Shown here: piece after piece, positions 14,674 through 29,052 of the stretch | Layout: every line of letters starts with the position of its first letter | Position numbering within the stretch: position 1 is the stretch's first letter | Assembly: GCA_009746045.1 (NCBI GenBank) | Contig: RPFO01000165.1 | Span: 5,059,085 to 5,123,084, forward strand | DNA from: Mesostigma viride | Lineage: Eukaryota > Streptophyta > Mesostigmatophyceae > Mesostigmatales > Mesostigmataceae | Length of the DNA stretch: 64,000 bases | Direction of reading: 5' to 3' | Notes under the pieces: model-generated | What the model was told of the DNA's origin: nothing | What the model saw: only the letters and a program-made list of their open reading frames with translations | The model's database searches: none | Position numbers and translations under genes: made by a program

Positions 14674-14736
14674 TTAGCTGCCTGGGTCCAGAGACCGTCG
14701 AATGGCTTCTTGAAGCATCTCGTCCTCGGTCATATC
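14674..14736 (-). other. Last exon: C-terminal ubiquitin-interacting motif
   Basis: Twenty codons plus TAA, reading DMTEDEMLQEAIRRSLDPGS. The acidic patch, the L-Q-x-A-I core and the following S-L match the UIM consensus (E-E-x-x-L-x-x-A-x-x-x-S). The acceptor is at 14738-14737 and the junction with the polyQ exon is phase 0. The motif is placed as the very tail of the protein. Confidence 0.85.
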
Positions 14737-26700: not shown

Positions 26701-29052
26701 AAGCGCAGCCACCGCTCTTCTTTCAAAACAGCGAACCACCCTCTGGCGACCCTTGAAACAGCCAGAAGCTCAAACCTATCCTCGCCACTGATCCCTCATC
26801 CCCTTGCCCTTTCTTGGCGGACGGTAGACAGCAGAAATGAGCACATCTAAGTACTGGGGCGCGCATCAGCCCCTGATCGCAGTAACCACCAACCCTGGAC
26901 GCACACCTGTGAGTATCATCCATCGTGTTTCGTGCACACAGGCACTGATTACAGAGAGCACACGCGAGAAAAGCCTAGCCTGCACCACACGAATAGCTCA
27001 GAGTGCAGCTCCCATGGAGCAAGTTCCTAAAGACAGGATCCAGTTCTGATGTCGCAGTCGAGGTATCACCCCATTACATCGAGAAAGCCGGTTTGCCCTC
27101 ACCATACTTACACCAGCTCCACAGGAAAAGCCACACGGTTGGGGGCTTGTGCATGAATGCCGTGACGTGTGCTGGCGCTACCATTGGAAGTGGCATTACC
27201 GGCACATGAACCAGCGGTGGCCTGGATGGCATCCTGCAGAGGCCTCCAGCGCGCTGGCAGCGCTTGCAAGCGACTACCTTTTGTGATTACCTCCCCATCC
27301 CACAAGCAGTGACCTCCTCTCACCTCCCCATCCCACGAGCAGTGACCACCTTTTGTGATTACCTCCCCATCCCACAAGCAGTGACCACCTCTCTCCTCCC
27401 CATCCCACGAGCAGTGACCACCTCTCACCTCCCCATCCCACGAGCAGTGACCACCTCTCACCTCCCCATCCCACGAGCAGTGACCATCTCTCACCTCCCC
27501 ATCCCACGAGCAGTGACCACCTCTCACCTCCCCATCCCACGAGCAGTGACCATCTCTCACCTCCCCATCCCACGAGCAGTGACCACCTCTCACCTCCCCA
27601 TCCCACGAGCAGTGACCACCTCTCTCCTCCCCATCCCACGAGCAGTGACCACCTCTCACCTCCCCATCCCACGAGCAGTGACCAACTCTCACCTCCCCAT
27701 CCCACGAGCAGTGACCACCTCTCACCTCCCCATCCCACGAGCATGACCACCTCTCTCCTCCCCATCCTACGAGCAGTGACCACCTCTCTCCTCCCCATCC
27801 TATGAGCAGTGACCACCTCTCTCCTCCCGATCCTACGAGAAGCGCAGCAAAGCGCGCCGCTATTGTGAGGTGGGACCATGCTGCGTGGGCTTGAATGGCT
27901 CTTTAGTGGGGGCTGCCACCACCACATGATGGGGCCGTAACTTCATCAGTCAGCCCGCTACTGTTGAGCAAATTATTTACCTGGTAGTATGCCCTTAATG
28001 TTATGTCCAGCGCAGAACAACCAAAATCACCTGCTCTCACAGCACCAATGATGTCACTGCTGTGATAGCCATCTGCAGGGTTTGGGCTAGACCCCTGGGC
28101 ACAGCCACAGCAACAGCGTAAGCTGGTATGCCTACATATTTTTACTTGAGCAGTCTTGCAACTCAGATCTAATGAGTTCAAAGCTAACTGGCCCAGGCAA
28201 TTTCACGCGGAGCCAGAAATGCAAAGGATGCAGGATGTGCCCGCCTACCTGGGCCACCTTCTTGAAGTGGGCGACGGTGTCCCTGAGCCGTCCCAGCCTG
28301 TCGGCAATGCCGTCAATCCAGACCTGTCAAGCCGCCGTCATGTAGGGGCATTACAATTCCGAACGCCGATCGCAGCATGAATAAGATTCTATTAATGGAA
28401 CTGCCGATGTAGTTACTCTGACCTCCCGAACAGGGGGGCGGGGGCTGACGCCATTGACAGGAAACAGCGGGGAGGGCGACAGGAATCAACGAGGGAAAGC
28501 AGGCAAGGCGACATGACATTCACAGCGACATGACATTGATAGTTCATGTCTAAGAGGACCCATCCTTTCCCGCCTGGTTACCTACACAAAGAACACAACA
28601 TCGCAGAGTGCCCACACGGAGCTTGCAAGATTCCGCCGTGTACCTACGCCAGCCAAGCGGGCTTGTTACAAACCTTTCGCTCAGAGAGGCCGCCTGCAGG
28701 CATTGCGTTTAGTTGAGCCTCTGCTTCATCTACTTCAGTAGATGTCTCACTGAATTTCGTCATGTCGTCAGTATAGCGGCGTTCCCCAACCTGTAGGAAA
28801 CACCACTGCAAGAAGGCAGCATAGAAACTATGGCAGCCAAATGATTGGAATTCAACAACTCGAGAACTATGTTTACACGACCATGTGGCAGCGGGCATAG
28901 AGATGGGGGGACATTGCGAATTATCAGATATTTCAACCTCTAGCAGAGAGACTTGCCCAGTGTGACTTACCCTCGAATTAAAGACTGTTAAAACCTTGCT
29001 CTCTCTCAAGGCCGAGCCAACATAGATCCACGAGGAAAACCTCTCTGCACTG
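14674..29052 (-). CDS. Multidomain coiled-coil / thioredoxin / PUB / STI1 / polyQ / UIM protein, 16 exons
   Basis: Exons on the minus strand, in order: 29052-28971, 28790-28674, 28323-28249, 25662-25003, 24107-23929, 23391-23365, 22757-22697, 21845-21653, 21205-21115, 20198-20106, 19039-18931, 18751-18604, 17829-17747, 16486-16442, 15219-15019, 14736-14674. Every internal junction has GT..AG and the split codons rejoin in frame, giving about 741 residues plus an unresolved N-terminus. Thioredoxin domains catalyse dithiol-disulfide exchange, PUB domains bind the p97/VCP C-terminus, STI1 repeats bind Hsp70-type clients and UIMs bind ubiquitin. Together they suggest a cytosolic redox-active ubiquitin/chaperone adaptor (inference). 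No signal peptide is evident. The start codon is not placed; a Cys-x2-Cys exon at 29262-29471 may be upstream. I recognise each domain but no named protein with this order. Confidence 0.8.
15019..15219 (-). other. Polyglutamine exon
   Basis: A 201-bp exon (67 codons, phase 0 at both ends) starting RQGLGGAQPQVQP and then almost uninterrupted Gln encoded by mixed CAG and CAA, broken once by PR, and ending APSQRQAPQDV before a GTAGGT donor. Antisense poly-Leu and frameshifted poly-Ala frames here are shadows. Mixed codons argue for selection on the protein, though the tract is likely length-variable. Confidence 0.8.
16011..16394. repeat. Intronic (CACACGCCCA)n / (CACACGCG)n microsatellite
   Basis: An alternating purine-pyrimidine array in two blocks: CACACGCC repeats to about 16163, then CACACGCG repeats to about 16390, with occasional CACACACG. 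It lies in the intron between the STI1 exon and the polyQ exon. The second block is strongly Z-DNA-prone by composition. Long open frames across it on the minus strand are artefacts of the 8-bp period. Confidence 0.95.
16442..17829 (-). other. Two exons encoding an STI1-like Met/Gln motif
   Basis: Exon 17829-17747 (PVPGGAPLSPLQ then MPDIRSLMSPEIMRQ) joins exon 16486-16442 (LMNDPRTMQTMQQMM) at phase 0. The joined text around SPEIMRQ-LMNDPRTMQTM matches the N-P-E-x-M-R-Q-x-M-x-N-P pattern of STI1 repeats in ubiquilin, Hip and Sti1. The acceptor at 16488-16487 has a weak pyrimidine tract, so a slightly longer upstream exon is possible, but this is the only phase-0 solution found. Confidence 0.75.
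18355..18490. repeat. Intronic tandem repeat, about 50 bp unit
   Basis: Three copies of CACAGAGCCTCACATGACCA followed by CAACAAGCATAAGCCATGCCT, the last diverged. They lie in the intron between exons 18604-18751 and 17747-17829. Confidence 0.8.
19073..19360. repeat. Two short intronic tandem arrays
   Basis: From 19073 to about 19208 there are irregular copies of GGTCACTATGGGTCAGGACA, and from about 19233 to 19360 irregular copies of GCTTGCGAGGCAAGGGTTTG. Both lie in the intron between two PUB exons. Confidence 0.8.
19768..19952. mobile_element. Foldback (MITE-like) element within a PUB intron
   Basis: Imperfect inverted repeats run from TGGCCAGAACTC on the left to the complement of TGGCCGGAATCC on the right and include GGTTCCGGACC in both arms. 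The centre is a near-perfect hairpin at 19843-19874 with 12-bp arms AACCTAAGCTTA and loop TGTGCACG. No coding capacity. Confidence 0.65.
20238..20700. repeat. Intronic 37-bp minisatellite
   Basis: About 12 copies of the unit ACAGCGAGCGTGCTTCAATG + TACTGCAGTGCAACATG, differing mainly at one C/T site (TGCAACATG or TGTAACATG). They fill the intron between the first two PUB exons. Confidence 0.95.
21870..22000. repeat. G-rich intronic repeat
   Basis: Irregular copies of GGGGATCAAAGGGGAGGGTG + AAA with long G-runs, in the intron after exon 22757-22697. G-quadruplex formation on the plus strand is possible by composition. Confidence 0.8.
23568..23693. repeat. Tandem duplication of 63 bp
   Basis: Two essentially identical copies starting CTGTATAACAATCTACAGGC and running to AACATATTCCTGTAC, in the intron upstream of the WCGPC micro-exon. 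The unit contains internal inverted symmetry (GAATATGTTTACAGAAC-like). Confidence 0.85.
24531..24868. repeat. Intronic 29-bp minisatellite
   Basis: About 11-12 copies of GCCTTGATGAAAAGTACCAT + AGTAGCAAA, with GATAGAAAG variants. It lies between the coiled-coil exon and the first thioredoxin exon. Three overlapping open frames on the minus strand are artefacts. Confidence 0.95.
25003..25662 (-). other. Large exon encoding a charged coiled coil
   Basis: A 660-bp exon (220 codons, phase 0 at both ends) starting ETDPQKKLYGPAMAKKCLDL. It continues through DAKFSQLLQQALETQAETG into about 150 residues of repeated K-A-K/R-E-E-E-E-R units, then a Gln/Ala-rich part, and ends EWTMDGVVSHY before a GTAGAA donor. 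The composition and heptad spacing indicate a long single helix or dimeric coiled coil, probably for oligomerisation or spacing. The donor is the least certain boundary: the frame stays open another 50 bp. Confidence 0.75.
25777..26115. repeat. Intronic (GAAA)n microsatellite and adjoining 21-bp repeat
   Basis: About 40 copies of GAAA (25777-25945) are followed after a short spacer by seven copies of ACAGAATGCAATCACAGCTG + T (about 25976-26108). Both lie in the intron upstream of the coiled-coil exon. Confidence 0.95.
26333..26575. repeat. Intronic 27-bp minisatellite
   Basis: Nine copies of GCCCCTATCGGCCCAAACAA + GCACGCT. The period is a multiple of three, so several frames stay open across it on both strands; none is coding. 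Confidence 0.95.
27287..27840. repeat. Intronic 33-bp minisatellite
   Basis: About 16 copies of CCTCCCCATCCCACGAGCAG + TGACCACCTCTCA. The first few units alternate with a longer variant containing TTTTGTGATTA. Long frames on both strands are artefacts of the 33-bp period. Confidence 0.95.
28249..29052 (-). other. Three N-terminal exons of the thioredoxin-PUB gene
   Basis: Exon about 29052-28971 (ends SSWIYVGSALRESK, VLTVFNSR; donor GTAAGT), 28790-28674 (VGERRYTDDMTKFSETST, EVDEAEAQLNAMPAGGLSER) and 28323-28249 (VWIDGIADRLGRLRDTVAH, FKKVAQ) join at phase 0. The text looks helical after the first exon; no family is recognised. The acceptor of the first exon is ambiguous (AG at 29053, 29050 or 29046), so the true N-terminus lies further upstream and is unresolved. 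Confidence 0.6.

Follow-up and report, generated by a model that had tools for sequence, protein, structure and literature searches.

A 64-kb stretch of the Mesostigma viride genome (the window, by which we mean the whole of this DNA) encodes on its minus strand a protein in which a long charged coil is followed by a thioredoxin, a PUB domain, a short STI1-like motif and a C-terminal ubiquitin-interacting motif (UIM). Judged from its sequence, this is a real, single and conserved gene. We suggest, with a probability of about 0.55, that the protein is a soluble CDC48/p97 cofactor that brings its own disulfide reductase to ubiquitinated clients. A wider proposal, which we hold to be slightly short of even odds, is that it represents a so far unnamed microalgal family of redox-active CDC48 cofactors. 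These would be ubiquitin-directed reductases that open client disulfides at the CDC48 pore, and the lineages that also carry a ubiquitin-like (UBL) domain would be complete thioredoxin-bearing shuttle factors.

Gene model

All coordinates are positions in the window. Three-frame reading and joining of exons at GT-AG borders gave 15 coding exons from 28763 down to 14674 and a single protein of 690 residues (Table 1). The 14 introns all have GT-AG ends. The gene spans about 14 kb and its introns are repeat-rich. From the N terminus, the product consists of N-terminal helices, the charged coil, the thioredoxin (with WCGPC and the cis-proline), PUB, the short STI1-like motif, polyglutamine and the UIM. 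All the parts named in a preliminary description of this DNA are present on the minus strand, in the order given there. Third-position GC is 0.73-1.00 in exons 3, 4 and 6-14, and lower (0.40-0.60) in exons 2, 5, 15 and 16.

The preliminary description counted sixteen phase-consistent exons. A frame-keeping GT-AG model was recovered, but only 15 of the exons are coding, and the first (29052-28971) is at best an exon of the 5' untranslated region (5'UTR). It is probably untranslated, because its single ATG opens a frame of five residues (MLARP-stop) and because nine homologous proteins begin at the place of the ATG at 28763. These are P0001, P0004, P0011, P0019, P0022, P0027, P0028, P0029 and P0033 (P-numbered labels denote homologous proteins retrieved by protein searches). 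The ATG at 28763 opens MTKFSE; the corresponding starts are MTLFSK in P0028, MSLFSK in P0029 and MSLYTR in P0033. The upstream extensions predicted in P0014, P0023 and P0032 count against this start. An R/S/P-rich insert that resembles an in-frame translated retained intron was seen within the N-terminal block, at residues ~22-65 of P0001 and P0004 and after the MTLFSK block of P0023.

Two splice sites are of uncertain position: the acceptor of the coil-thioredoxin junction and the start of exon 9. The coil-thioredoxin junction (donor 25019, acceptor 24101) was picked for frame in a linker that is not conserved, and its exact splice sites are uncertain. Earlier joins of coil to thioredoxin were out of frame and were rejected; acceptor 24101 put the frame right. 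By eye, the introns are rich in micro- and minisatellites (16000-16395, 20230-20700, 24530-24870, 25780-25945, 26330-26570 and 27290-27840).

Table 1. Exons of the predicted gene, with positions in the window and the evidence for each.
Feature	Positions	Strand	Evidence or remark
Possible non-coding first exon (5'UTR), exon 1 of the preliminary description	28971..29052	-	good donor, GTAAGT, at 28970
Coding exon 2 (from ATG 28763): MTKFSETSTEVDEAEAQ, helix 1 of the conserved N-terminal region	28674..28763	-	P0027, 50% identity over 20 aa, E 0.97; helix in P0027 model
Coding exon 3, second N-terminal helix	28249..28323	-	alignment with homologues
Coding exon 4, conserved block ETDPQKKLYGPAM followed by long charged coiled coil	25020..25662	-	tblastn P0024, E 0.002; matched again with tail-bearing set
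Coding exon 5, linker of low complexity, then the first strands of thioredoxin; position of acceptor 24101 uncertain	23929..24100	-	model, tblastn
Coding exon 6 (27 bases), active site YADWCGPC	23365..23391	-	C332 and C335 in 22/22 aligned sequences
Coding exon 7, thioredoxin	22697..22757	-	model, tblastn
Coding exon 8, last part of thioredoxin, including cis-Pro378 (ALPTF), and linker	21653..21845	-	Pfam PF00085 1.8e-20; alignment; tblastn
Coding exon 9, PUB region start; alternative same-phase acceptor 21 bases upstream possible	21115..21184	-	frame reading, model
Coding exon 10, PUB part that includes N463, K472 and F473 of the pocket	20106..20198	-	PF09409 1.7e-18; alignment; tblastn
Coding exon 11, PUB part that includes R477 of the pocket and FQSRVAALPGGMDCMRAFGF	18931..19039	-	alignment; tblastn
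Coding exon 12, PUB end and linker	18604..18751	-	model, alignment
Coding exon 13, STI1-like motif, first half (PDIRSLMSPEIMRQ)	17747..17829	-	model; without tblastn support of its own
Coding exon 14, STI1-like motif, second half (LMNDPRTMQTMQQMM)	16442..16486	-	tblastn P0028, E 0.024; matched again with tail-bearing set
Coding exon 15, polyglutamine	15019..15219	-	model
Coding exon 16, UIM at the C terminus (EDEMLQEAIRRSL), then stop TAA	14674..14736	-	P0025, 76% over 17 aa, E 0.029; UIM core pattern; tblastn

We compared the 39 fetched homologous proteins with the raw, unspliced window by tblastn, listing matches to E 10 and thus including chance matches. Exons 2, 4, 5, 6, 7, 8, 10, 11, 14 and 16 were recovered in order on the minus strand, the weakest being exon 2 (E 0.62-0.97). 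The best match to exon 6 came from P0009, a plain thioredoxin relative. Exons 3, 9, 12, 13 and 15 received no tblastn support of their own in this comparison. With the 11 relatives that carry the C-terminal tail, all 32 matches at E<=0.05 fell on exons 4, 8, 10, 11, 14 and 16 and none elsewhere in the 64 kb, and the same proteins reversed gave 0 matches. At E<=0.5, 51 of 58 matches fell on exons and seven elsewhere; reversed controls gave three, all elsewhere. The exon model is better than chance.

It is very improbable that the model is an artefact in which two or three adjacent genes were joined by eye. Such an error might be suspected from the 14-kb span, the repeat-rich introns, a model made from the DNA alone and a junction chosen by frame, but the same order occurs within single predicted proteins among the homologues, and the matches at E<=0.05 (32/32 on exons, reversed controls 0) point the same way. 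The alternative of two separate genes, raised in the preliminary description, found no support: thioredoxin and PUB are joined in 30 of 34 relatives and the full order is found within single proteins in 11.

Domains of the predicted protein

Thioredoxin (PF00085; E 1.8e-20, 73.3 bits against a cut-off of 23.5) and PUB (PF09409; E 1.7e-18, 66.7 bits against 34.3) were both identified over the Pfam cut-offs, as had been claimed for this protein. The active site and cis-proline residues (C332, G333, P334, C335 and P378) are present, and catalysis is predicted. The best PDB match of the thioredoxin part was thioredoxin f2 of Chlamydomonas (4.3e-22). The PUB part matched the PNGase structure 2hpj (7.8e-12) and, more weakly, UBXN6 (2.3e-5) and RNF31/HOIP.

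The STI1 motif and UIM claimed for this protein are supported through its homologues and miss the curated cut-offs in the window protein itself. A 48-residue fragment matched STI1-HOP_DP (E 0.0083, 16.4 bits against a cut-off of 29.1) and the ubiquilin-1-like family (E 0.05), both below cut-off. The C terminus has an acidic-hydrophobic-A-S core helix of the UIM kind (EDEMLQEAIRRSL), a core that the homologue tails share. Neither the STI1 nor the UIM fragment by itself had a convincing relative in the PDB.

Pfam matches for UBL, ubiquitin-associated (UBA) and PITH domains were absent from the protein at E<=1, and neither TPR nor UBX was listed. A search of the window by tblastn with the UBL-bearing homologues gave nothing convincing for a UBL exon (one match at E 8.5, with an internal stop). 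The N-terminal block matched no Pfam family (best DUF7158, 0.14) and had no convincing sequence match in the PDB (best 0.14). A BAG-type three-helix bundle was considered as a possible fold for this block; the fold searches returned mainly thioredoxins.

Relatives and conserved architecture

A first search with the thioredoxin-PUB part as query returned nine proteins, of which P0001-P0006 have both domains. The main search, with a masked alignment of the window model, P0001 and P0004, returned 34 proteins. Its query contained the STI1 stretch and held no UIM, so the presence of a UIM in relatives was unselected. In the precomputed Pfam column, thioredoxin and PUB occur together in 30 of the 34. 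P0022 has thioredoxin as its sole domain and the same N-terminal block; in P0037-P0039 thioredoxin is present and PUB is lacking.

In 11 relatives (P0023-P0033), a stretch in which N, P, Q and M abound comes after PUB, followed by a UIM core no more than 80 residues from the C terminus. All 11 have the coil, thioredoxin, PUB, an STI1-like stretch and the UIM core within one predicted protein, which is the outcome of the search for the architecture proposed in the preliminary description. The UIM core pattern was composed after the homologue tails had been seen, and K was admitted at its last position on account of P0024. Of the 39 fetched proteins, only those 11 contain it, and in the six-frame translation of the window (127,996 codons) it occurs once, in the last exon. 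Shuffling of the model gave the pattern in 34 of 20,000 cases, a figure that serves as a guide only, the pattern being post hoc. In an alignment of the model with nine of the 11 tails (P0028 and P0031 were omitted as near-copies), the A and S are invariant. Pfam identified a UIM in five of these ten aligned tails (best 0.0027), and none in the window protein's own tail.

STI1-HOP_DP or XPC-binding was found at E<=0.01 in seven of ten tail-bearing proteins scanned (P0023-P0026, P0029, P0032 and P0033); the one left out, P0031, is nearly identical to P0030. P0027 is assigned to the ubiquilin-1-like family in the precomputed Pfam column, and its predicted model has helices at 593-668, at the STI1-like place. 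A UBL domain scored over cut-off in three of the ten (P0029, P0032 and P0033), between coil and thioredoxin. Taken together, the relatives mark the protein as a member of a conserved family rather than an accident of assembly.

Residues of the active site and of the PUB pocket were surveyed in the window model and 21 relatives (n=22). CGPC and the cis-proline are present in 22/22. In the pocket, N occurs in 22/22, K in 21/22, Y or F in 21/22 and R in 17/22. Pocket positions were mapped from the PNGase residues given in PMC8181520 and from an alignment with the PNGase structure. The window protein keeps all the positions that bind the p97 tail (N463, K472, F473, which is Y in PNGase, and R477). 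The tail motif of Arabidopsis CDC48A is DLYN (PMC8181520), and the C-terminal CDC48 exon of the same genome, on contig C2, ends in DEDDLYN-stop. We infer that the PUB domain binds the tail of p97/CDC48.

Proposed function

The N-terminal helices and long coil would most likely make the protein an oligomer. Its PUB domain would dock on the DLYN tail of CDC48, for which both pocket and tail are seen in sequence, and the C-terminal UIM and STI1-like helices, motifs recognised by homology, may hold ubiquitinated, partly unfolded clients. The thioredoxin would then reduce disulfides or mixed disulfides of these clients, allowing their passage through CDC48 and the proteasome, and would be recharged by thioredoxin reductase. 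In relatives with a UBL domain, an added proteasome dock would turn the protein into a redox-active equivalent of shuttle factors such as ubiquilin and Rad23. The preliminary description placed the protein at the interface of p97, proteasome and Hsp70. This was a fair inference, best supported for p97 by the pocket and the DLYN tail, with ubiquitin next; the proteasome and Hsp70 stay conjectural.

The pocket and the DLYN tail would also suit a thioredoxin that serves the machine and not the client. Docked on CDC48 or the proteasome, it would keep in the reduced state those cysteines of CDC48, E2/E3 enzymes or deubiquitinases that are prone to oxidation, and ubiquitin binding would only steer it to busy complexes. 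TXNL1 is a precedent for a thioredoxin-like protein on the proteasome (PMC12700798) and has been called redox active (PMC12700817). We regard this as less likely than the reading in which clients are reduced, which is the most economical one; by itself it leaves the joint presence of an STI1-like stretch and a UIM core in 11 homologues unexplained. The long coil, the N-terminal helices and the STI1-like helices could also belong to an oligomeric protein that is mainly a chaperone (holdase), with thioredoxin as a redox switch and with PUB and UIM merely placing it near sites of degradation. In plants, AtTDX shifts between reductase and holdase with its oligomer state (PMC3724125). Such a role seems rather improbable here, given that Pfam lists no TPR in the window model and that the catalytic residues, needless for a pure chaperone, are invariant in 22/22.

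Several observations weigh against the proposed role as a CDC48 cofactor for ubiquitinated clients. The R477 position is K in P0024-P0026 and N in P0005 and P0006, and P0023 lacks the pocket K and Y/F. In the window protein Pfam found no UIM (PF02809) at E<=1 and no STI1 over the curated cut-off, and there is one short STI1-like unit compared with several in relatives. The STI1 stretch lay inside the main-search query; all STI1-type matches are below the curated cut-off (best homologue 28.2 against 29.1), and three of the ten scanned homologues (P0027, P0028 and P0030) gave no STI1-HOP_DP or XPC-binding match at E<=0.01. The UIM profile recovered no UIM from the PDB. Sixteen relatives of the P0001 type (P0001-P0004 and P0010-P0021) have no tail domain and no UIM core, and P0034-P0036 have no UIM core either. 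The ubiquitin-binding end may thus be dispensable in some relatives, or may have been lost or missed by gene calling.

The nine P0001-type proteins inspected (P0001-P0004, P0011, P0014 and P0019-P0021) stop about 10 residues or less after the final helix of PUB. A tree of the thioredoxin-PUB part places P0023, which has the tail, with the P0001 set, which lacks it (support 71); P0024-P0026, again with the tail, are next to join this group (support 100). Since tail-bearing proteins group with the tail-less set, the absence of the tail in the P0001 type looks secondary, by loss or gene calling. The deeper nodes, on which the placement of the window protein depends, are weak (support 53-67).

P0007 has a different fusion, of thioredoxin, UBA and UBX (Pfam 2.2e-23, 1.9e-16 and 2.1e-11). 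This is another link between a catalytic-looking thioredoxin and a p97-type adaptor, and it suggests that such a union arose more than once. Other fusions seen were WLM with PUB in P0008 and thioredoxin with a DUF676 esterase in P0037.

Genome context

Genome searches covered a 440-Mb assembly of 2,243 contigs, the window lying within contig C1912. Among the best candidates scored, seven of 13 matches to the thioredoxin-PUB part were in this locus (70-96% identity) and the other six had 28-35% identity. PUB matches were also present on three other contigs; a regular-expression look at four other PUB-matched loci of the genome gave no identity for any. A protein search with PUB and STI1 alone as query returned nothing at E<=0.01, its candidate list probably being swamped by low-complexity words. 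Six peptide patterns of the window protein had no match in the viral contigs scanned. For the chlorophyll a/b-binding family, 33 matches were listed in the genome by a search that also matches the cyanobacterial control, and the one of them that was translated, L020, had an 8e-158 match to structurally known light-harvesting chains of eukaryotic type. The genome is thus that of a photosynthetic eukaryote, probably a green alga.

Elsewhere in the window, we identified a reverse-transcriptase open reading frame at 8822-9802 (-) (RVT_1, 7.6e-26). Pieces of apparently the same non-LTR retrotransposon were seen by eye at 46212-47111 (-), 52772-53695 (+) and 54930-55595 (+). A 736-aa open frame at 39133-41343 (-) matched glycosyltransferase family 92 (2.8e-12), and a methyltransferase-like frame at 31184-32350 (+) scored slightly below the Pfam cut-off. 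Three adjoining open frames of 249-585 aa at 3409-7139 (+) had no Pfam match at E 0.01 and are perhaps an undescribed transposon.

Comparison with known systems

Little is known of how cytosolic proteins that are oxidised or contain disulfide bonds become fit for threading through CDC48/p97 and the proteasome. A conserved protein in which a reductase is physically joined to modules for binding the CDC48 tail and ubiquitin offers a direct, testable proposal, in photosynthetic cells under heavy oxidative load. The protein is a new combination of known domains, of kinds already known (p97 cofactors and shuttle factors), with no new fold or chemistry.

The ubiquilin/Rad23 shuttle factors have an STI1-type region, an N-terminal UBL and a C-terminal UBA. 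The family resembles them in its STI1-type region and ubiquitin-binding-type C terminus, and three relatives also have a UBL. Unlike them, the window protein ends in a UIM and not a UBA, has no UBL listed, and carries thioredoxin and PUB in addition.

Among the matches listed in the open-licence literature, no description of the thioredoxin-PUB-STI1-UIM architecture was found, and to that extent the earlier view of the protein as undescribed holds. For thioredoxin with PUB alone, an annotation from a brown alga exists: a table in PMC4108028 lists Ectocarpus Esi0071_0018, up under copper, as 'PUB domain, zinc finger protein thioredoxin'. A 'PUB' family is named among algal selenoproteins in PMC7539508. 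The diatom protein P0006 (Pseudo-nitzschia heimii) likewise has both domains in one protein, but lacks a UIM core, gave no STI1 match and has N at the pocket R position.

TXNL1 (thioredoxin and PITH) is a proteasome redox factor that turned up in this literature and also brings a thioredoxin to the degradation machinery (PMC12700798, PMC12700817). It differs in binding the 19S particle and in its PITH domain, which is not listed in the window protein. Plant TDX is another thioredoxin fused to a chaperone-type interaction module (PMC3724125), which consists of TPR repeats there, whereas PUB, an STI1-like motif and a UIM are found here.

In UBXD1/UBXN6 and plant PUX2, PUB is likewise part of a multi-domain CDC48 cofactor (PMC8181520), and UBXN6 was matched at 2.3e-5; these proteins have UBX, while the window protein has thioredoxin, the STI1-like motif and UIM, with no UBX listed. 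The PUB domain of PNGase/NGLY1, a p97-tail binder, is similar in sequence (7.8e-12 to 2hpj) and shares the pocket of N, K, aromatic residue and R. The enzyme joined to it there is a peptide:N-glycanase, whereas in the window protein it is a thioredoxin.

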